DNA of 64,000 bases from Thalassospiraceae bacterium LMO-JJ14. Its GTDB lineage: Bacteria; Pseudomonadota; Alphaproteobacteria; Rhodospirillales; Casp-alpha2. Location of the stretch: NCBI GenBank assembly GCA_021555105.2, contig CP134604.1:620001-684000 (forward strand), in the 5' to 3' direction. Shown here piece by piece: positions 7,551 to 21,703 of the stretch (positions within the stretch are counted from its first letter, which is position 1; each line of letters starts with the position of its first letter). A program made the position numbers and the translations under genes. The notes beneath the pieces are model-generated. The model made no database searches, was not told the DNA's origin, and saw nothing but the letters and a program-made list of their open reading frames with translations.

Positions 7551-8054
7551 ATGCTTGAGCATTTAAAATTGATGGCGCGCTATAACAAGTGGGCAAACGA
7601 CCGCATCAGTTCGGCCATCGCCGAAATCAGCGAAGCCGACTACATGGCGCCCCGTGAGGCGTTCTTCGGGTCGATCCACGGTGCCGCCAATCATCTTCTA
7701 TTGGTCGATCGATTGTGGCGCGGGCGGATGGAAGGCAAGCCGTATCCCGCGGAAAGCCTGGATCAGATCGTTTGTCAGGACCGTGAAGCCTTTATCCGCG
7801 AGCGTGCCCGCGAAGACGATAAACTGATTGATTTTGTCGACGGATTTGATGCCGTCGCTCTTGAAGAAGACTTCAGCTACAAGACGATGAACGGCATCGG
7901 CAGCACCGACAAGCGGCGCGCCGTGCTGGCGCATATATTTAACCATGCGACCCATCACAGAGGGCAGATGCACGCGCTGCTGTCGCAGGTGCCGAGCGAC
8001 CCCCCGCCACTTGATTTGATCCCTTATCTGCGTGAACGAAACGCAGAACCCTGA
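7551..8054 (+). CDS. DinB-family protein
   Basis: A 167-residue four-helix-bundle DinB/DUF664-type protein. The amino end YNKWANDRI and the metal-ligand histidines (HGAANHLLLVD near the middle; FNHATHHRGQ near the end) fit the family, whose members are metal-dependent thiol S-transferases or damage-related proteins. The ATG at 7551 is preferred because AGAGG lies 5 bases upstream; an upstream frame extension lies inside the preceding terminator. Confidence 0.85.
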   Translation: MLEHLKLMARYNKWANDRISSAIAEISEADYMAPREAFFGSIHGAANHLLLVDRLWRGRMEGKPYPAESLDQIVCQDREAFIRERAREDDKLIDFVDGFDAVALEEDFSYKTMNGIGSTDKRRAVLAHIFNHATHHRGQMHALLSQVPSDPPPLDLIPYLRERNAEP

Positions 8055-8927: not shown

Positions 8928-11006
8928 TCACACGGCCTGCGTGAGCGGCTTGATGACAAGCACGGACACGTCATCGTGGGCTTCGGTGTTGCCGCGATAT
9001 GCCGCAAGGTCGCTGAGGATTGCATCAAGTATCGCAGCGCTACCGCGTGCATGGGATTTGCGGATAGCGCTTTTCAATCGGTCCAGGCCGAACTGCATGC
9101 CCTGTTCGTTCAGCGCCTCACGGAGGCCGTCTGTGTATGCGACAAGAAGCCCGCCATCGGGCAGCGCTGCGGTTTGTCCGCTGAAAGTCCACTCGGCGTC
9201 GACGCCGAGGGGGATGTCTTCGCCGTCAAGAAGCGAGAAAGTGTCCGCTTCTGGTTCATAAATCAACACCGGCTCATGGCCTGCGGAGATCCAGCTGAAA
9301 TCCCGTTTGCCGGCTTCGAGCTGCATATAAAAAAGTGTCAGCGATCTCCCGCCAGGGCTGTCTGCGCTCAGTTGACGATTGACGGCTGCAAGGACATCGG
9401 CGGCAGTCTTTTCGTGTGGGGCATTGGCGCGGAGTACTGCGCGTGCAGACGCCATCAGTAAGGCCGCACCGACTCCGTGGCCGGTGACGTCGCCAATGAC
9501 TATGGCATATCGATGATCGTCGAGGGGGACATAATCCTGATAATCGCCCCCGGTTTCATCACAATAAATCGTCTTGCCGGCAAGATCGAAGCCGTCGATG
9601 GCGGGTGCGGTTGCCGGAATCAGGTGTTGCTGGATTTCCTGCGCGGCATGCAGATCGCGTTTGACGCGGATCTGTTCTTCGAGCGCCGGAACCATCCGGT
9701 TGAAATCTCGGCCAAGGTCCCCTAGCTCATCGCCGCCGGGTTTCTGAATGCGCACCGAAAAATCACCGCGCGCCAGCCTTGCTGCCGCTTCATGCAGACG
9801 CCGCACGGGGCTTGTCAGGGTCTTGGCACCGAACACCGCCAGTGCAGCAGCTATCAGGCCGGCAATCAGGGCAAACACGATCGCTGTGCGTAACTGATCG
9901 CGGTATGATTGTTGAACGACGGCTTCAACTTTTTCGCTGGCCGCGTTGATGATTCCCGCCGGGAAGGAAACGGCAATATGGTAAACCGCGCCGTTGGTTG
10001 CCCCGACAGGCCCGAATGCCCAAACTTCGCGTCTACCGTCGAGTTCGACTTCTTCAAGGCCGGGCACACCGGAGCGGATATCGCTGACGACCTTGATCCA
10101 GAGATCATTACCGTTCAGAGAAATCGGCTGACGCTCTTTTAAAACCTCCCAGTGGCCGTTTTCGGGCGAGAAAACGGCGATTTTGTGGGGCATTAGTTCA
10201 GGGTCGTTATTGGGGACGGCAAACAGATGAGCACTGGCATCGGGCGGCAGGCGCGTCGCATCCAGTGATTGGGTCAGCAGAACATCCAGGCGGACCGAGA
10301 CGCGAACCGCCCCCGCTAGCTGCCCATCGTCAAGCTGAATAGGTGCTGTGGCAAACATCCGTCCTGTTATGCCGTCCGTACTGTCGAACCAGTCGGCTTG
10401 CGATGTTTCGAGGGTCCGGAGATACCAGTCCTGTTCGCGTGGGTCTTTGTCGAGGCGTGCCGCCATGCCCGGATATGAAATCGTCAGTCCGCTCTCGAAG
10501 GTAATGGTCAAAGTATCGATTGCGCCTCTGTTTCTGAGGTAAACCAAGCGCGCGACTTCATTGAAACCGGCAAGACGATTAAGTGAACTGGCAATCTGAT
10601 CGCGGCTGGCGTCAGGCGCTATGTGTACGCTCATGTGCTGCAGGTCGATGTGTTGCGCGACGCTCGGATCTGTCGGCATGGTTTGATCGGGCGCGAGGAG
10701 AAAACCGTTCACGCCATCCGCTAATTCGGCCACCGGACCTGGTGCCTCAAGCCGTGATGCGATATCGCCGGCAAGGAAGCGAACTTCACGAGCCACCTCG
10801 GTGCGGGTTTGTTCAATGCTAACGGCACCGGTTTCGGTGGCGCGCCTGATATCAAGGTGGACCCGTTCGGCCAGCAGGTTCTTGCCGCGCTCCGCCATAT
10901 CGGCGCCGAATTTCGAAGTCGCCCGCAAATAAACTACGGACGCCGCACCCAGTGGCAGGACGGCGAGGGCGATAAAGCAAATCGCAAGCTTGGTTCCAAT
11001 TTTCAT
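8928..11006 (-). CDS. Membrane-bound PP2C/SpoIIE-type phosphatase with dCache and HAMP domains
   Basis: A 692-residue RsbU-like sensor phosphatase. Membrane helix 1 is about residues 7-27, an extracytoplasmic dCache-like sensor spans 28-373, helix 2 is about 374-395, a HAMP linker is about 395-447, and the SpoIIE/PP2C phosphatase occupies about 455-690. Metal-binding aspartates lie in GGDYQDY (487-492) and IGDVTGHG (504-511). Such proteins dephosphorylate anti-sigma-antagonist (STAS) proteins in partner-switching control of stress responses. No STAS or anti-sigma gene is adjacent, so its target is unknown. Confidence 0.9.
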   Translation of the reverse strand: MKIGTKLAICFIALAVLPLGAASVVYLRATSKFGADMAERGKNLLAERVHLDIRRATETGAVSIEQTRTEVAREVRFLAGDIASRLEAPGPVAELADGVNGFLLAPDQTMPTDPSVAQHIDLQHMSVHIAPDASRDQIASSLNRLAGFNEVARLVYLRNRGAIDTLTITFESGLTISYPGMAARLDKDPREQDWYLRTLETSQADWFDSTDGITGRMFATAPIQLDDGQLAGAVRVSVRLDVLLTQSLDATRLPPDASAHLFAVPNNDPELMPHKIAVFSPENGHWEVLKERQPISLNGNDLWIKVVSDIRSGVPGLEEVELDGRREVWAFGPVGATNGAVYHIAVSFPAGIINAASEKVEAVVQQSYRDQLRTAIVFALIAGLIAAALAVFGAKTLTSPVRRLHEAAARLARGDFSVRIQKPGGDELGDLGRDFNRMVPALEEQIRVKRDLHAAQEIQQHLIPATAPAIDGFDLAGKTIYCDETGGDYQDYVPLDDHRYAIVIGDVTGHGVGAALLMASARAVLRANAPHEKTAADVLAAVNRQLSADSPGGRSLTLFYMQLEAGKRDFSWISAGHEPVLIYEPEADTFSLLDGEDIPLGVDAEWTFSGQTAALPDGGLLVAYTDGLREALNEQGMQFGLDRLKSAIRKSHARGSAAILDAILSDLAAYRGNTEAHDDVSVLVIKPLTQAV

Positions 11007-12247: not shown

Positions 12248-12817
12248 ATGAGAGGATTTTTCGGTATCGGCGTAGAAGGTATTTCCAAGGAGATGAACGT
12301 TGGAAACCTTTTTCGCTCTGCACATGCCTTCGACGCCAGTTTCGTCTTCACGGTGAATGCGAACTATAAGCGAAGGATTGGCAAACGTGCGGATACGTCG
12401 GACTCGCTGGCACATCTGCCGTTTTATGAATTCCCGGATATGGATGCGATGCTGCTGCCGGATGGTTGCAGCCTGGTCGGTGTCGAACTGATGGACGATT
12501 CCATCGATCTGCCGAGCTTCCGTCACCCACCCCAAGCTGCCTATATCCTGGGGCCGGAGCGGGGGGAGCTGTCCCCTGAAATGCTGCAGCGCTGTGACCA
12601 TGTCATCAAGATACCGACAAAATTCTGTATCAACGTCGGCGTTGCCGGTGCCCTTGTCATGTATGACAGGGTGTTGTCGATGTCGCGGCTTGCGCCGCGT
12701 CCGCTGATGCCTGGCGGGCCGGTCGAGGAAGCGGATCGGGGGCGGCACGGCGGCCCGAAATTCAGACGTGGCACAGAGGCTTTTCGCCAGCCGCCTCCGG
12801 CGGCATATAACAAATAA
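12248..12817 (+). CDS. SpoU/TrmH-family RNA methyltransferase
   Basis: A 189-residue SPOUT 2'-O-methyltransferase-like protein. Motif 1 is EMNVGNLFRSAHAF, motif 2 AYILGPERGELS and motif 3 IPTKFCINVGVAGALVMYDRV. The usual SLNVSVA of motif 3 is replaced by CINVGVA. The substrate RNA cannot be told. The last six codons run into a GC-rich repeat (12790-12838) that ends the frame, so the tail after about residue 160 is probably not part of the fold. Confidence 0.85.
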   Translation: MRGFFGIGVEGISKEMNVGNLFRSAHAFDASFVFTVNANYKRRIGKRADTSDSLAHLPFYEFPDMDAMLLPDGCSLVGVELMDDSIDLPSFRHPPQAAYILGPERGELSPEMLQRCDHVIKIPTKFCINVGVAGALVMYDRVLSMSRLAPRPLMPGGPVEEADRGRHGGPKFRRGTEAFRQPPPAAYNK

Positions 12818-12838
12818 GCCGCCTCCGGCGGTATATAA
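12790..12838. repeat. Tandem pair of 21-bp hairpin repeats at the SpoU gene end
   Basis: GCCGCCTCCGGCGG followed by CATATAA occurs at 12790-12810 and again, with C to T at one base, at 12818-12838. Each copy contains the inverted repeat CCGCC-TCC-GGCGG. The first copy supplies the stop region of the SpoU gene. It may serve as a terminator-like or REP-like element. Confidence 0.7.
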
Positions 12839-12858
12839 GGATCAAGCTGTCAGAAGAG

Positions 12859-13851
12859 TCAGTCAGCCATACGGATGGTCCCAACCGCATCGCCGGCGGC
12901 ATTGTAGACGATCGGCTGTAAATGTTTGGCCAACTTGCGGCTTTCTTCTTGCCCGATAATCCCGGCCTCGACCAGCAAATGCCCCATCACGACATCGGCG
13001 GCGCGTTTCTCGCCGTCCTCTGCCTTGAGGGCAATCCCCAGGCCCTTCCCCGGCAGAATGGCGATGTGAACGCCTTCTGCGCCGCCTTTCGTCGCGACTT
13101 TGCCGCCGAGGGCACCCATGATATCGGTATCGAAGCGGTCCGGGCCGCCGACCATGAACGGCTCCGCCATGACGGCGGCAAGGATGCGCCTGACAGCCGT
13201 GCCGCGCTCTTCGCCAAGACCCGCCGGGTCGGCCATTTTCTGCGCTGCATGGGCGAGCGCCGTCAGCGTCATGCCATATACCGGAATGCCGCAGCCATCC
13301 AGGCCACGGCCCGTATCTGCCAAATTCTGGCCACCAAGTGTGACGAGTATTTCATACAGCCGGCGTTGCACGGGGTGATCCGGGTCCAGGTATCCTTGCG
13401 TCGGCTCGCCGAGGTGCAGCGCCGTGGTCAGGAAACCTGTATGTTTTCCCGAGCAGTTATTGTTCAGCCGTGTCGGCGACTGGTCGGCGCGAATCAGTGC
13501 GTGCGCGGAAGTAATGTCATATGGCAGATGCGCGCCGCAGCCGAGATGATCAGCGCCGAGGCCTAATCGTTCCAGCCATGCCGCAACGGCGTCGACGTGC
13601 GTCGGCGTTCCTGAATGCGAAGCGGATGCAAGAGCCAGTTCCGCCACATTGACCCGCCGCGCGTCCGCTGCGCCGCTTTCGACCAGCGGCAGGGACTGCA
13701 TGAATTTGATGGCTGAGCGCGGATAAAACATCAGATCGGGATCGCCCCATGTTTTGACCGGGCCGGACGCGTCGCACACCATCGCATGCACCCTGTGTCG
13801 GCTTTCCACCATGGTGCCGCGGGTTACTTCACAAATCAGGGGGTCGGACAT
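12859..13851 (-). CDS. Asparaginase (PF06089 type)
   Basis: A 330-residue protein of the Asparaginase_II (PF06089) family, the Rhizobium etli AnsA-like group, unrelated in fold to E. coli AnsB. Family stretches are EVTRGTMVESRHR at the start, FYPRSAIKFMQ, NNCSGKHTGFL, GLDGCGIPVYG and the conserved GGPDRFDTDIM. It should hydrolyse L-asparagine to aspartate and ammonia in the cytoplasm. The start at 13851 is chosen from the family amino end. It stands alone, facing a divergent IalB-like gene. Confidence 0.9.
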   Translation of the reverse strand: MSDPLICEVTRGTMVESRHRVHAMVCDASGPVKTWGDPDLMFYPRSAIKFMQSLPLVESGAADARRVNVAELALASASHSGTPTHVDAVAAWLERLGLGADHLGCGAHLPYDITSAHALIRADQSPTRLNNNCSGKHTGFLTTALHLGEPTQGYLDPDHPVQRRLYEILVTLGGQNLADTGRGLDGCGIPVYGMTLTALAHAAQKMADPAGLGEERGTAVRRILAAVMAEPFMVGGPDRFDTDIMGALGGKVATKGGAEGVHIAILPGKGLGIALKAEDGEKRAADVVMGHLLVEAGIIGQEESRKLAKHLQPIVYNAAGDAVGTIRMAD

Positions 13852-14455: not shown

Positions 14456-14683
14456 ATGGCCGGTTTTTCAGATGACATTTTAATGCGTACCGACATTCTT
14501 CCGGTGAGATGCCCGGGATGCGGTGAAGCACAGAACACCCTTGAAGGCGCTGCTGATCCGCTATCGCCCAAGGCACAGGTCGGCTGTATGGTGTGCGGCT
14601 ATGTTTTCGGTGCGGACGAATACCGCACGCTTCTTACCGAACGTCAGCGCGAGTTTCAGACGCTGCAACTCGGCGATCAGTAA
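14456..14683 (+). CDS. Small zinc-ribbon protein
   Basis: A 75-residue protein with two cysteine pairs, RCPGCGE and GCMVCGY, spaced as in a zinc ribbon. No specific family recognised. It starts 4 bases after the IalB-like stop and ends 51 bases before lepA. Confidence 0.6.
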   Translation: MAGFSDDILMRTDILPVRCPGCGEAQNTLEGAADPLSPKAQVGCMVCGYVFGADEYRTLLTERQREFQTLQLGDQ

Positions 14684-14734
14684 GCCGCCGATTAGGATGG
14701 TAATGACGCCCTCGGGGTGATACATAGCCGCGCC

Positions 14735-16537
14735 ATGACCGACACCGCACACATACGAAATTTTGCGATCATCGCACACATCGACCACGGGAAGTCGACC
14801 CTTGCCGACCGCCTGATTCAGGTGTGCGGCGGGCTGACGGCGCGCGAGATGAAAGAGCAGGTGCTCGACAACATGGATCTCGAGCGCGAGCGCGGGATTA
14901 CTATCAAGGCGCAGACCGTGCGTCTGAAATACACCGCCAAAAACGGCGAGGATTACATTCTCAACCTGATCGATACGCCGGGTCATGTGGATTTTTCTTA
15001 TGAAGTCAGCCGCTCGCTGGCTGCCTGCGAAGGCGCGCTTCTCGTTGTCGATGCGACGCAGGGAGTCGAGGCACAGACCCTGGCCAACGTCTATCTGGCC
15101 ATTGAAAACGACCTCGAGATCATTCCCATATTGAACAAAGCGGACTTGCCGGCGGCTGAGCCGGAACGGGTCAAGGAGCAGATTGAGGACGTCATCGGTC
15201 TGGATGCGTCCGAAGCGCTTCTGATTTCCGCCAAGACGGGCATGGGCGTGCCGGATGTTCTGGAAGCCATCGTCAACAAGGTGCCGCCACCCAAGGGCGA
15301 TCCCACGGCGCCGCTGAAAGCGCTGCTCGTCGACAGCTGGTACGATGCCTATCTGGGCGTGATGACGCTGGTGCGTGTCTATGAGGGTACGCTGAAGAAA
15401 GGCATGAAGCTTCGCCTGATGCAGGAAGATGCCATACACCAAGCCGACCAGGTCGGGGTCTTTACGCCGAAACCGACAAAGATCGAGGCGCTGGGCCCGG
15501 GGGACGTCGGTTATATGACGGCGGCCATTAAGGCTGTCGCGGAAACGTCGGTCGGCGACACGATTACCGAGGACAAGCGCCAGACGGCAACGCCGCTGGC
15601 GGGCTTTAAGCCGTCGATCCCCGTTGTTTTCTGCGGACTGTTTCCGACCGATGCATCCGAATACGAAGATCTGCGCGATGCCCTGGCAAAACTGCACCTG
15701 AACGACGCCAGCTTCCACTATGAGGCGGAAAGCTCGGCGGCGCTCGGTTTCGGATACCGGTGCGGATTTCTCGGCCTGTTGCATCTTGAAATCGTGCAGG
15801 AACGGCTTGAACGCGAATTCGATCTCGATCTTATCACCACCAGTCCAAGCGTGGTGTACAAGGTCTACCGCACCGACGGCACTATGAAGGAACTGCATAA
15901 CCCGGTCGATATGCCGGATCCGGTGCAGATCGATTATGTCGAAGAACCGCTGATCCGTGCTTCGGTCATGGTGCCGGACGAATTTCTCGGTTCAGTGCTG
16001 AGCCTGTGCGAAGAACGGCGCGGCGAGCAGATGGAGCTGACCTATGTCGGCAACCGCGCCATGGTCGTTTACAAGCTGCCGTTGAACGAAGTTGTGTTCG
16101 ATTTCTATGACCGGCTGAAGTCCGTCTCGCGCGGATACGCAAGCTTCGATTACGAGCTGATCGGTTACGAGCGCGGCGATCTGGTCAAGATCTCGATTCT
16201 GGTCAATGCCGAGCCGGTCGATGCCCTGGCCTTTATTGCGCATCGCAGCCATGCCGAATCGCGCGGCCGCCAGGTGTGCGAGAAATTGAAGGACCTGATC
16301 CCGCGCCAACTGTTCAAGATTGCCATTCAAGCGGCGATCGGCGGCAAGGTGATCGCGCGTGAAACCGTTAGCGCCATGCGCAAGGACGTCACCGCGAAAT
16401 GCTATGGCGGCGATATCACGCGAAAGAAAAAGCTTCTCGAAAAGCAGAAGAAGGGCAAAAAGCGGATGCGCCAGATCGGCAATGTGGAAATTCCGCAATC
16501 CGCGTTTTTGGCCGCACTCAAAACCAGCGGCGACTAG
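14735..16537 (+). CDS. lepA: Elongation factor 4 (LepA)
   Basis: A 600-residue translational GTPase that back-translocates or remodels stalled ribosomes. GTPase motifs are AHIDHGKST (14-22), DTPGHVDF and NKADLP. The LepA-specific C-terminal domain ends in [20 protein letters not shown] and [12 protein letters not shown]. The ATG at 14735 is chosen because homologues begin just before the NFAIIAH stretch; no strong Shine-Dalgarno is present. Confidence 0.97.
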
Positions 16538-17219: not shown

Positions 17220-17309
17220 GGAGGGGTGGCCGAGTGGCTGAAGGCGCACGCTTGGAAAGCGTGTATGCGGGAAACCGTATCGAGGGTTCGAATCCCTCTC
17301 CCTCCGCCA
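17220..17309 (+). tRNA. tRNA-Ser (anticodon GGA)
   Basis: The 90-base cloverleaf has acceptor GGAGGGG paired with TCCCTCC, anticodon stem CACGC/GCGTG with loop TTGGAAA (anticodon GGA), a long variable arm as expected for serine, T-loop GGTTCGAATCC and an encoded CCA. Its last 19 bases are the outer end of the inverted repeat that encloses the following integrase gene. Confidence 0.97.
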
Positions 17310-17427
17310 TCACCCCCGAAGTCCACCCTGAGTAACCCTTTCAGTGCCACCTAAGGCTCCCCCAAGCGTCTTGCTACACCAGACGCTACACAGGAGTTGT
17401 CATGAAGTTGCACCAAAGGGGACAGGC
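17291..17427 (+). repeat. Left arm of a 137-bp inverted repeat around the integrase gene
   Basis: This segment is repeated in inverted orientation at 18680-18816 with only two mismatches by eye. It holds the final 19 bases of tRNA-Ser, about 90 bases of non-coding DNA with two GCTACAC copies (possible integrase sites), the integrase ribosome site and its first 9 codons. Confidence 0.95.
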
Positions 17428-18670
17428 GTATCACCTCCGGGTTCGCGTTCCAGCGGACCTTGTCGAGATCATCGGTCGTCGTGAAATCCACCAGTCACTA
17501 AGAACCAGCGATGGCCGTTCGGCACGCTCCAGAGCCTCCACCTTGAGAGCCACTATCGACGCTGGCTTCGACCGTCTTCGCTTGGCGCGGCTCGGGAACC
17601 AGAACCAAGAGCATCTGTCCGAGTTGGCGAATGCCTTCCTCGTGAGCCTTGGTAGCTCCCGCCGCAACGGCAGCAATAAGGCCACAACCAAGAAGCCGCT
17701 CCGTCTTCGTCAACTGATGGACCTCCACCTCGCAGAGAAGAAGCCCGCCCTTGATCCTCGCAGTTACGGCAAGATGGAACTCAGCTTCAAGATGGCGCTT
17801 CACCACATGGGCAACATTCCCCTCAAGGACTTGGACCGTTCCGTCTGCCGCGCCTACCGGGAAGCCTTGAGGGTGACGCCTCAGTTCCTCCTTCGGAACG
17901 ATACCGCTTCGGAGAACACCAAGAGAGTTCTCTCGGACAAGACGATCAACCATCACCTCCAGTATCTCTCCGGTCTTCTCCGGTGGGCCACGCGGGAAGA
18001 ACTGATCGGGGGCAACCCTGCCGAGGGCCTCTCCATCAGGAAGCGCCAACGAGATTGGGAGGAGCGGTTCGCCTTTGACGCCGATCAGTTGAAGACGCTT
18101 CTCGGGTCACTCTGGACGGATACCGACAGACAGGAACGTCGATGGGTCCCGTTGATCGCCCTCTGGTCCGGGATGCGTCAGGAGGAAGTCTGCCAACTGC
18201 GTCACTGTGACATCGTTGAGCGAGACGAGGGCCACTTCTTCGTTGTTACCATCGAAGCAGGGACACTCAAATCCGCTGCCGCCGAGAGGCTTGTCCCCGT
18301 CCATCCCCGTCTGGTGAAGATGGGACTCCTTGAGGAAGTCTGGAACCCCGAGTTGGGAGACCAGCGCCTCTGGCCCTCTCTCAAGAAGACGGCATTGGAT
18401 CGTTACGCCAACGCCCTCTGTAAATGGTTCAGCCGCTACAAGGCGTCGAAAGGGTTCAACGACCGCCGCTACTGCTTCCACTCACTCCGTCACACCTTCA
18501 TCAACGCCATGAAGCAGAACGAGGTCCCGGAGCCTGTCATTCGTCAGATCGTCGGACATCAGGAAGCATCCCTGACGTTGGGTCGATACGGGAAGGTCTA
18601 TGACTTGGAGAAGCTGGTCCGCTACATGGAAGTGATCGACTTCGACATCGATCTCACTCGGCCCACCTGA
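17402..18670 (+). CDS. Tyrosine recombinase / integrase
   Basis: A 422-residue phage-type integrase. An amino-terminal arm-binding part and SAM-like core-binding domain (about 95-210) precede the catalytic domain. Catalytic residues: arginine in SGMRQEEV, H-x-x-R in HSLRHTF, histidine in VGHQE and tyrosine in LGRYGK. It begins MKLHQRGQAYHLRVRVP, as in other integrases of this kind. Codon choice (many CTC, CTT, GTC) differs from the flanking core genes. The start codon and first codons lie inside the left inverted-repeat arm; AGGAG is 7 bases upstream. It probably integrates into the 3' end of tRNA-Ser. Confidence 0.92.
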   Translation: MKLHQRGQAYHLRVRVPADLVEIIGRREIHQSLRTSDGRSARSRASTLRATIDAGFDRLRLARLGNQNQEHLSELANAFLVSLGSSRRNGSNKATTKKPLRLRQLMDLHLAEKKPALDPRSYGKMELSFKMALHHMGNIPLKDLDRSVCRAYREALRVTPQFLLRNDTASENTKRVLSDKTINHHLQYLSGLLRWATREELIGGNPAEGLSIRKRQRDWEERFAFDADQLKTLLGSLWTDTDRQERRWVPLIALWSGMRQEEVCQLRHCDIVERDEGHFFVVTIEAGTLKSAAAERLVPVHPRLVKMGLLEEVWNPELGDQRLWPSLKKTALDRYANALCKWFSRYKASKGFNDRRYCFHSLRHTFINAMKQNEVPEPVIRQIVGHQEASLTLGRYGKVYDLEKLVRYMEVIDFDIDLTRPT

Positions 18671-18679
18671 GAAGACACT

Positions 18680-18816
18680 GCCTGTCCCCTTTGGTGCAAC
18701 TTCATGACAACTCCTGTGTAGCGTCTGGTGTAGCAAGACGCTTGGGGGAGCCTCAGGTGGCACTGAAAGTGTTACTCAGGGTGGACTTCGGGGGTGATGG
18801 CGGAGGGAGAGGGATT
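18680..18816 (-). repeat. Right arm of the 137-bp inverted repeat
   Basis: Reverse complement of 17291-17427 with two mismatches. It ends at GGGATT, the complement of the tRNA-Ser T-loop region, and begins 9 bases after the integrase stop. Confidence 0.95.
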
Positions 18817-19248
18817 GCCCCAAGCCTCCCTCTGTCGTTCTCAGCCCCTTATGTCTTCCTGTATCTGTCTTCGTGCGACCTCAGGTTCACCACCAAGCGC
18901 GGTGGAGCAACCTGTGTAGCATGGGGAACCCACCAAGTGAATCCCCTCAGTTACACCTAAGGCCTCTCCTAAGATCAACACGTGGTCGCACCAGAGTAGC
19001 TACCGTGCTGACCATGTTGATGATGATGGCAAAACGACCGGGGCTGACCCTAAGAAGACGACTTGGGAGCGCGGGGGGGGTAATCCGCCGAGGGCACTTC
19101 CTATTAAACCCCCTTCGGAAATCTCCAACGAAATGAGCACTCCACCGCTTCCCAGAAGACAGGGAGAGGAGTAGTAGAGTACTTCATCTCAAGCTGTGGA
19201 ATGGAGTGTAATAATAAACACTGTAAGACTCGCTCCTTTGGGTTTTCC
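18817..19248. other. Non-coding DNA beyond the integrase element
   Basis: No convincing gene. CCTGTGTAGC at 18911-18920 is another copy, inverted, of the GCTACACAGG found in the repeat arms. From about 18942 to 19003 there is a diverged direct copy of the left arm: CAGT-x-x-CACCTAAGGC, C-rich stretch and AAG, then CACCAGA and GCTAC, in the same order as at 17341-17391. This suggests debris of an older attachment region. Confidence 0.5.
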
Positions 19249-19641
19249 TCAGGGTAAGGCCACGTCGAAGCCGTAATATCTTGCCGAGCCGATCTCGGGT
19301 TGCACCTTGAAGGGGTGCATCTCACCAGCGATTTGCCGTTTCCTGTATTCGAGGTACCTGTAGACGAGGCTCTTACCGACCCCAATCCCCTTGGCAATGA
19401 TCTCAGCGGGAACTTCGCCGAAGTGATCGACAATCCAACAGACCTTCATCTGAGGGTCTAGCTTCGACATTCCCTCACCCTTTCTGAAGCCCTCGAAGTC
19501 CGACAAGGCATCGAATACTGGGGTCCACCGGGAGGGGCACTGGGAGGCGAGGAACGCCTTGAGGTCATCCTCGATGATCTCCCGACACAAGGGAGATAAG
19601 ACATCGAAGGGGCCGTGTTCGCCTATGATCCGATACCCCAA
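19249..19641 (-). CDS. Small helix-turn-helix protein, possibly mobile-element regulator
   Basis: A 130-residue protein not assigned to a named family. The stretch EIIAKGIGVGKSLVYRYLEYRKR near residues 80-102 resembles a helix-turn-helix. The start is TTG, with GGAGAAGAAGGGG just upstream; an internal ATG at 19470 would leave only the HTH half. Its neighbourhood (integrase element upstream, core antiporter downstream) suggests it belongs to foreign DNA. Confidence 0.5.
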   Translation of the reverse strand: MGYRIIGEHGPFDVLSPLCREIIEDDLKAFLASQCPSRWTPVFDALSDFEGFRKGEGMSKLDPQMKVCWIVDHFGEVPAEIIAKGIGVGKSLVYRYLEYRKRQIAGEMHPFKVQPEIGSARYYGFDVALP

Positions 19642-19726
19642 CCCCTTCTTCTCCGCTTAAACATGTTCGCAGTAAGCATGATGACGTGCTTTACTGGATG
19701 GCAATTATCAGCTGCGAGGCATATTC

Positions 19727-20920
19727 GTGGACATCGGGATTCACTTCATCACGATAGCAGCCGTTCTTGCTTCTGGGCTTGCCGTTGACAAGGTCGGCCG
19801 GGCCACACACTTGCCGAGGATTACGTTGTTGGTGATTTTCGGTGTGATTGTGGGACCTTCCGGTCTGGGCTTTTTGCCCGATGATATCAATGCATGGCGT
19901 GAGGTGATTTCTATTCTCGCCCTGACGATGATCGCGTTTCTGCTCGGTGAAGAGTTCTCGATAAAAGGACTCAAGGCTTATGGGCCGTGCATACTCAAAG
20001 TTTCCTTTTCGGTTGTTATGGCGTCGCTGTTTTGTATCGCCGGTGGATTGATTTTGCTTGGTGTTCCCGCCGCCTTGGCATTTTTGATGGCCGGCGTGGG
20101 GCTGGCCACGGATCCGGCGGCGACGCGTGATGTTATCGTTGAAAGCCATGCGGACGGGCCTGTGACAAAAACCGTACTTGGCGTGGTTGCTGTCGACGAT
20201 GCCTGGGCGGTGATCATATTCAGCATCATTTTAGGATTTGTCGCCGTGACCGATTCTGGACACAACGGTGGATTGTTGGCCGGCTTTTACGATGTTCTGA
20301 AAGCGGCTGCGGTCGGCATTGGTGTCGGAATCCCGGCGGCATTCCTTAGCGGTCGTCTGCGTGACGGCGAGCCGACGTTGCTGGAAGCGATCTCGATCGT
20401 CATGCTGTGCGCCGGCGTTGCGCTGGTGCTTGATGTCTCTTTCCTGCTGAGCGGGATGGTCGCGGGCGCTACGGTCGTCAATCTTGCCCGCCATCACGAT
20501 TATTCGTTTCACGAAATCGAACACATCAGTGCGCCGTTTCTGATCCTGTTCTTCGTACTCGCAGGTGCTGCCATCGATCTGGTCTCGATTTTTGACGCCG
20601 GTCTGATCGGCATAGCCTTTATCGTTCTGCGCCTTGCCGGCAGATTTGCCGGGGGCTGGGTTGGCGGCATTTTTGGGGGGATGACAGCGCAACAATCGAA
20701 GTGGATCGGCCTGGCGCTTACGCCACAGGCCGGTGTCGCACTGGGCATGGCGCTTGCCGCCGGCCACGCCGCCCCTGACATGGCCGAAGACCTGATGACC
20801 CTGACCGTGGCAACGGTCGTATTTTTCGAAATTACGGGGCCTGTGCTGACACGCTATGTGTTTAATCATCTTGGTGAGGCGCAAGCGGATTCAGATCCAC
20901 CAAATAAGCCAGGCAGATGA
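19727..20920 (+). CDS. CPA2-type cation:proton antiporter
   Basis: A 397-residue membrane protein with about 11-12 hydrophobic helices, in the Kef/NapA-like sodium/proton-exchanger family. The pattern GVVAVDDAWAVIIF carries the acidic pair of the ion site, and LALTPQAGVALGMALAAG matches the later half. There is no C-terminal RCK/TrkA domain. GTG start with GAGG 7 bases upstream. It should exchange sodium or potassium for protons across the inner membrane. Confidence 0.87.
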   Translation: MDIGIHFITIAAVLASGLAVDKVGRATHLPRITLLVIFGVIVGPSGLGFLPDDINAWREVISILALTMIAFLLGEEFSIKGLKAYGPCILKVSFSVVMASLFCIAGGLILLGVPAALAFLMAGVGLATDPAATRDVIVESHADGPVTKTVLGVVAVDDAWAVIIFSIILGFVAVTDSGHNGGLLAGFYDVLKAAAVGIGVGIPAAFLSGRLRDGEPTLLEAISIVMLCAGVALVLDVSFLLSGMVAGATVVNLARHHDYSFHEIEHISAPFLILFFVLAGAAIDLVSIFDAGLIGIAFIVLRLAGRFAGGWVGGIFGGMTAQQSKWIGLALTPQAGVALGMALAAGHAAPDMAEDLMTLTVATVVFFEITGPVLTRYVFNHLGEAQADSDPPNKPGR

Positions 20921-21015
20921 TTCATACGTGCATAGTCATAGCACATTCCGGATTTTGATCGACGGTACTTTCCTGAATGATGTGCCGGAAAGTCACCGCC
21001 ACAGCGGATTGACGG

Positions 21016-21540
21016 TTAGCCGGCTGTACGGTTCCAGGGCATCATCAGAACAATACGGGCCAGTGCACATGTCCCCGTCAGGCCTGCAAAAGCCAACCCG
21101 GCGCCGATTGCCATGGTCGCATAGGCGACTTGTGGCGGGCCCACCAGTGTCCACGCCGACAAGGCAAGGATCATGACGCCGACGATCAACTGTACCTGTC
21201 TGGCGATGCTCATGCCGGCACTGCCTACGTGGCCGGCGACAACAGGCAAGCCGTTGTCACGCCAGGCGTTGATGCCACCGGTCAGAATGCTGGTTTTACC
21301 AATGCCGGACTTATTGATGAGTGGCGTTGCATTTTCTGTGCGGATGCCGGACGAACAGTAAAAAACGGCATCCTTGTCGCCGACGATCAAGGGCAGGTTG
21401 TTGTCAATCTGGTCACTCGGCAACAATACGGCACCCGGAATGTGTTCCGCCGCAAATTCATCCTCGCCACGGATATCAAAAAGAATGACCTGTTGATGAT
21501 CGATCAGAGTTTTCAACTCCGGGGGACTAACGCTCTGCAT
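21016..21540 (-). CDS. Rhodanese with C-terminal DUF2892 membrane domain
   Basis: A 174-residue protein: a rhodanese domain (about 1-105) with active-site C62 in YCSSGIRTE, then two hydrophobic segments of the DUF2892 type (about 115-170). It should transfer sulfane sulfur at the membrane. The start at 21540 is supported by GGAG; the frame stays open far upstream but that part is antisense to the YeeE gene. It is divergent from a YeeE/YedE transporter, a known sulfide/thiosulfate-handling pairing. Confidence 0.88.
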   Translation of the reverse strand: MQSVSPPELKTLIDHQQVILFDIRGEDEFAAEHIPGAVLLPSDQIDNNLPLIVGDKDAVFYCSSGIRTENATPLINKSGIGKTSILTGGINAWRDNGLPVVAGHVGSAGMSIARQVQLIVGVMILALSAWTLVGPPQVAYATMAIGAGLAFAGLTGTCALARIVLMMPWNRTAG

Positions 21541-21703
21541 TGGGGAACTCCATAAAAGGGCTGTATAATATTCTTTGAATATAATATATAAAAATGGAAT
21601 ATGAAGTAGTCTTTTAAGAATATCTATTGTGCGTTGAACACATGCCTCGAAAGAGGCCTTGATTGCGTACGACCCGCATATGCGTTGCCGGAGAATGTCC
21701 CTG
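21541..21703. promoter_or_regulatory. AT-rich divergent promoter with a palindrome (21568-21582)
   Basis: The gap between the divergent rhodanese and YeeE genes is AT-rich and holds the perfect inverted repeat ATATTC-TTT-GAATAT at 21568-21582 followed by ATAATATATAAAAA and a further GGAATAT. A sulfide-responsive ArsR-type repressor would be a plausible binder by analogy with similar operons, but no such gene is in the window. Confidence 0.4.

Follow-up and report, generated by a model that had tools for sequence, protein, structure and literature searches.

Hin and the shufflon are invertible DNA segments that have their own recombinase. The 2-micron plasmid, which uses the Flp/FRT system, has repeats of 599 nt that contain FRT, and its double rolling-circle replication is recombinogenic (PMC3147054). 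In ICEclc, whose integrase is IntB13, the transcript of the integrase gene has a listed promoter, Pcirc, at the far end of the element (PMC2892462). We have studied an integrase gene (int) adjoining a tRNA gene in a stretch of 64,000 nucleotides from Thalassospiraceae bacterium LMO-JJ14 (contig CP134604.1, positions 620,001 to 684,000; hereafter the window), where it lies within an inverted repeat. Our reading, to which we give a probability of roughly two-thirds, is that int belongs to a tRNA-integrated element with two attachment (att) sites of the attP type, the second of which is inverted, heads another gene and bounds a module of cargo genes.

The features of the locus are given below in window coordinates. 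The flank of a tRNA-like core on the side of int is termed P′, and the int-distal flank P.

17220–17309, forward strand: tRNA-Ser(GGA), found by ARAGORN, the integration target, with its 3′ tail as core 1.
17291–17427, forward strand: left arm, assigned as attL by layout, with core 1 (17291–17309), the P′ region and the first 26 nt of int.
17373–17394, forward strand: two GCTACAC motifs of the left P′ arm (17373–17379 and 17385–17391), candidate arm-type sites for the integrase.
17402–18670, forward strand: int, a tyrosine recombinase of 422 aa with DUF6538 and Phage_integrase domains.
18680–18816, reverse strand: right arm, the left arm inverted (P′ region and core 2).
18713–18734, reverse strand: two GCTACAC motifs of the right P′ arm.
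18798–18816, reverse strand: core 2, the tRNA-Ser tail inverted.
18817–18965, reverse strand: putative P arm of the second attP, holding GCTACACAGG at 18911–18920; placed by analogy with relatives, outer limit uncertain.
19249–19641, reverse strand: open reading frame of 130 aa without family match, possibly a cargo-side remnant, membership uncertain.

A repeat search of the window reproduced the inverted repeat of 137 nt that the sequence-only reading had described around int, with arms that are 99% complementary, spaced by 1252 nt and differing at two positions (17337, a C, versus 18770; 17353, an A, versus 18754). The match is far beyond chance. The left arm takes in the last 19 nt of the tRNA gene, a leader of 92 nt and 26 nt from the start of int. 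In the right arm this order is reversed, and the arm begins 9 nt past the int stop codon. Two att-like sites, each with tRNA tail, leader and first integrase codons, do indeed face each other and bracket the int segment. The genome is a single contig of 3.89 Mb, and a whole-genome DNA search found these two copies of the arm only. The exact tail of 18 nt likewise occurs at just two sites in the genome, all remaining matches being located elsewhere and carrying two or three mismatches.

The integrase frame is intact and retains the tRNA 3′ tail beside it. It scores 50.7 bits for PF00589 (curated cut-off 27.1) and 71.4 bits for DUF6538 (cut-off 27). The residues R259, K290, H360/R363, H386 and Y396, which we take to be the catalytic R, K, HxxR, H and Y, are all present, and are invariant between int and its closest relative. 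GCTACAC occurs five times in the window, always inside the element, with two copies in each P′ arm and one in the P arm (18914–18920). The sequence GCTACACAGG has three exact occurrences, all within the element. These counts are only mildly above chance; it is the placement of the motifs that carries the argument.

Does the arrangement occur elsewhere, as the sequence-only reading had proposed should be looked into? Matches to DUF6538 (PF20172) at E ≤ 1e-10 were present in 47 of the 385 genomes of the class, and we inspected loci of up to 20 kb around nearly all of them. Counting the window, 23 loci have an inverted second core behind int (L078, L079, L081, L082, L083, L084, L085, L086, two in L087, L089, L090, L091, L093, L108, L116, L121, L137, L185, L222, L223 and L040/L044; in L116 the integrase is broken). 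The P′ arm is usually repeated up to a few bases short of the start codon. A tRNA gene is visible in 18 of these loci, representing 13 isoacceptors, the selenocysteine tRNA among them, in eight families by genome label. The same test applied to 30 integrase loci of the PF13356 type found no such repeat, compared with 7 of 30 DUF6538 loci. A quick tree places most carriers in one larger clade and in the pair formed by the window and its closest relative; the trait requires 5 changes on it, against a mean of 15.8 when shuffled. The carriers marked in this tree did not yet include L084 or the first integrase of L087. There may have been two origins, or one origin followed by losses. Because the layout recurs at no fewer than thirteen kinds of tRNA gene in alphaproteobacteria, the facing attP sites are, as judged across loci, a conserved design, neither accidental nor the result of faulty sequencing.

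Of the integrases found, the nearest to that of the window, at 60% identity, is from the Kordiimonadales bacterium IMCC3096 (CP018227.1, Alphaproteobacteria; locus L044). With the single int protein as query, no close relative was found in GTDB contigs and IMG/VR; a two-row profile search of the same collections returned IMCC3096 as the sole match. Integrases at about 38% identity or below (G614, G255, G029, G032 and G008) were considered as carriers of the layout and rejected, since they lack an inverted core; in G614 the repeats are ordinary direct ones. The IMCC3096 integrase sits at another tRNA gene, Ser-GCT, within an inverted repeat of 160 nt and 100% identity. A second inverted repeat, of 705 nt and also 100%, runs from core 2 to a third tRNA tail. 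The three cores lie at 7888–7907 (+, at the tRNA gene), 9403–9422 (−) and 15122–15141 (+). From this order it follows that the outer cores are ordinary direct repeats and the inverted core is internal. Cores 2 and 3 enclose an extensin-like gene, a protein of 524 aa from a phage family without known function, and two unknown genes. Joining the outer cores would give a predicted circle of about 7.2 kb that contains two complete attP sites facing each other. The 524-aa protein (12258–13829) corresponds to PHROG 4756, function unknown, with relatives in large Vibrio and Aeromonas phages; a sequence search gave no relative with a solved structure. Its LDYNALHPRLLY and HDSF stretches presumably recall motifs A and C of family-A polymerases.

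A third core in direct orientation, with an adjacent inverted copy of the P arm, was found in seven elements (L044, L086, L089, L091, L087, L078 and L085), and a direct-repeat attR was recognized in L044, L086, L089, L085 and L078. Because the P arm beyond core 2 recurs inverted beside the third core, the layout assigns core 2 as P-core-P′, a complete attP; core 1 as tRNA-core-P′, hence attL; and core 3 as P-core-chromosome, hence attR. The sequence-only reading had set against its facing sites the possibility that the right arm is part of a larger element with ordinary ends. The ends of the seven relatives are of that kind, being direct repeats; the internal inverted site is nonetheless present as well.

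Is core 2 simply a copy of the neighboring tRNA tail? L084 and L085 share 87% identity in their int DNA. L084 has inserted at tRNA-Gly(TCC), and its core 2 is still the Arg-type TCTTCCCGAGCGCACCA. Because the element at tRNA-Gly retains the Arg-type core 2 of its relatives, comparison of these loci shows core 2 to belong to the element, and not to be copied from the tRNA. At the first L087 integrase, core 1 is Arg-type and core 2 Phe-type, with arms of one family; therefore the cores do change.

In its full form, as relatives show it, the element reads: tRNA, core 1, P′, int, inverted P′, inverted core 2, inverted P, cargo, P and core 3. Recombination between core 1 and core 3, attL and attR in direct repeat, would provide ordinary integration and excision, leaving core 2 as a second attP that has not recombined. 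Core 2 would also mark the border between an int module and a cargo module, both bounded by facing cores, and the integrase could in principle exchange or invert the two. A bolder extension, which we regard as improbable, takes the excised circle as a bacterial counterpart of the 2-micron plasmid: the integrase would flip its halves during replication, amplifying the circle or shuffling int and cargo modules, and tRNA integration would lock the orientation of int by cutting off the P-arm promoter.

The facing sites also invite the interpretation that the integrase recombines them and so turns its own gene around, either as a switch or for integration in either direction. The cores are near-identical and have arms, and the start codons lie within the arms, so that inversion would leave the gene whole either way. 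Yet wherever a tRNA gene is in view, in 18 of 18 loci compared with one another, the start of int faces it, where use of both attP sites should yield a mixture. The two-sided probability of this is about 8e-6 under independence, a figure that serves only as a guide given that the loci are related. Had flipping been regular, about one locus in two should show the 3′ end of int at the tRNA; routine inversion is therefore unsupported, and the sequence-only reading's suggestion of gene inversion or two-way integration is not borne out as a regular event. Inversion at low frequency inside a population may still take place. Either core 2 is unused for integration or the reverse orientation is short-lived. 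We consider a self-inverting integrase unlikely. The orientation may be fixed because a complete attP ahead of int has a promoter from which integration would separate the gene. Shared cargo in opposite orientation was considered as proof of inversion and set aside as too weak, since it amounts to one small gene (L121 versus L087).

Core 2 repeats the leader of int, and could thereby head a second gene. A reading frame that faces int begins right behind the P′ arm of core 2 in about half of the loci, its start about as far from core 2 as the start of int is from core 1. It encodes a methyltransferase in L084 and L087, a DUF1330 protein in L121 and L087, and elsewhere a protein of unknown family. 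In the other half, the window among them, the right arm abuts the end of int with no second gene, and would, if active, transcribe against int. This spacing would suit a second copy kept only as an expression head, that is, a promoter and leader driving a cargo gene or RNA against int, with core 2 as a passive passenger and not a recombination site. So would a conserved stretch in most P arms of the larger clade, sigma-70-like (TTGAC-N16-TAAACT-like) and ending 54–58 bp ahead of the core. However, an expression head alone leaves unaccounted for the retention of the tRNA core and the whole P arm, a core 2 sequence that matches the tRNA type the element recognizes, and the loci that have the repeat without a second gene or, as in the window, without the motif. 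It too seems to us a doubtful explanation.

The arms are near-identical inside each locus and wholly different between most loci, which calls for recent copying or regular conversion. In the double-attP element, a circle that recombines through its inverted repeats, like the 2-micron plasmid, would keep them near-identical. The same pattern would be expected of a functionless by-product that arises repeatedly, by fold-back or template-switch copying of the att region in replication or failed recombination, as would the variable inner ends of the repeats, which in L040 and L081 extend past the int stop codon. Against such copying, it is invariably the att region that is repeated and invariably behind int, in one integrase clade and one pair and at none of the 30 control loci, and core 2 of L084 predates its current integration. 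We think a by-product very improbable. An artefact of assembly or sequencing has only the palindromic look in its favor and is very unlikely, given the two mismatches, to which the sequence-only reading had already pointed, the single-contig genome and an identical layout in many independent assemblies, closed genomes included.

Comparison across loci establishes that the layout exists and recurs, that core 2 is autonomous, that int keeps one orientation and that about half of the relatives have a second gene. These findings sustain the double-attP element as our preferred reading. Several points weigh against it. A whole-genome search for the tail found no third core in the window genome. Core 3 was also not found in about 30–50 kb downstream of L121, L083, L116 and L084. 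L086 and L085 repeat only a short P′ part (18 and 37 nt), and the full second attP is therefore not preserved everywhere. The sigma-70-like motif of the larger clade is not recognizable in the P arms of the window or IMCC3096, and two scans gave no promoter in the P arm of the window.

Since the window genome has no third core, the full form of its element is inferred from relatives. Near the element there is no direct second tail that could form an attR, and a repeat search of the window found no inverted P-arm copy. The genus relatives G043 and G046 show the empty site: tRNA-Ser, a short gene and then a YeeE-type gene, with no integrase. The YeeE-type gene is located at 21659 in the window, and between it and the tRNA gene are the int module, the unmatched reading frame, an antiporter and a rhodanese-type gene. 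Because core 3 is absent from the genome, the window, which keeps the int module, has probably lost the cargo half together with core 3 and its P arm, by what would appear to be a deletion that stranded the module.

Just 3′ of tRNA-Ser(GGA) lies an insertion hotspot (window 17310–21640 compared with L036, L037 and L038). In G044 about 4.6 kb of unrelated DNA is inserted at this site, where the window lacks a cyclic-nucleotide-binding-like gene that the relatives have. The window genome has a second DUF6538 integrase, of 512 aa, at tRNA-Phe (G000:C1:1321610, L111), with no inverted core in the 20 kb viewed.

Other arrangements were seen among the surveyed loci. L089 (9726–19813) is a tandem array of such elements with cores alternating +,−,+,−,+, and L087, with both its integrases, is likewise tandem. 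L091 (4518–18164) is an array with cores of tRNA-Leu(GAG) type, in which one complete and several broken integrases lie among transporter-like genes. L088 (9608–11900) holds a tiny element at tRNA-Thr, with int between direct cores 1.3 kb apart and an inverted core about 0.9 kb beyond. L086, read in reverse, has a separate perfect inverted repeat of 931 nt (14671–15601 and 17703–18633) that consists of one gene in two facing copies (frames of 584 and 468 aa with a shared start).

Methods that delimit islands use direct tRNA repeats, and an internal inverted attP could lead them to cut wrongly or to label the site an artefact. If core 2 is active, these elements would be natural two-module cassettes, with defined sites at which integrase and cargo could be swapped or turned around. 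That int keeps one orientation although the facing sites are near-identical raises a testable question, namely how an integrase chooses between identical attP sites.

How does the element compare with known systems? A literature search on inverted or second attP sites, DUF6538 and integrases flanked by inverted repeats gave nothing matching; it covered open-access texts only, and is weak evidence of absence. Like the tRNA-integrated islands of tyrosine integrases, the element has int beside the tRNA 3′ end, keeps the tail and, in complete relatives, ends in direct repeats; unlike them it has an extra inverted attP between int and cargo, and inverted repeats bound both halves. Its recombinase gene lies within or beside facing recombination sites, as with Hin and the shufflon, but in a single orientation in all 18 loci with a tRNA in view, and those sites are of the att type, have arms and in one case fall inside a tRNA gene. 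The predicted circle of IMCC3096, with an inverted repeat of about 845 nt that has the core inside it and separates two unique parts, would resemble the 2-micron plasmid; the elements described here differ in integrating at a tRNA gene. The far-end integrase promoter of ICEclc parallels what we propose for the P arm, and we know of no inverted internal attP in ICEclc. Each part is known by itself; put together they appear to form a new version of the tRNA-integrated island.
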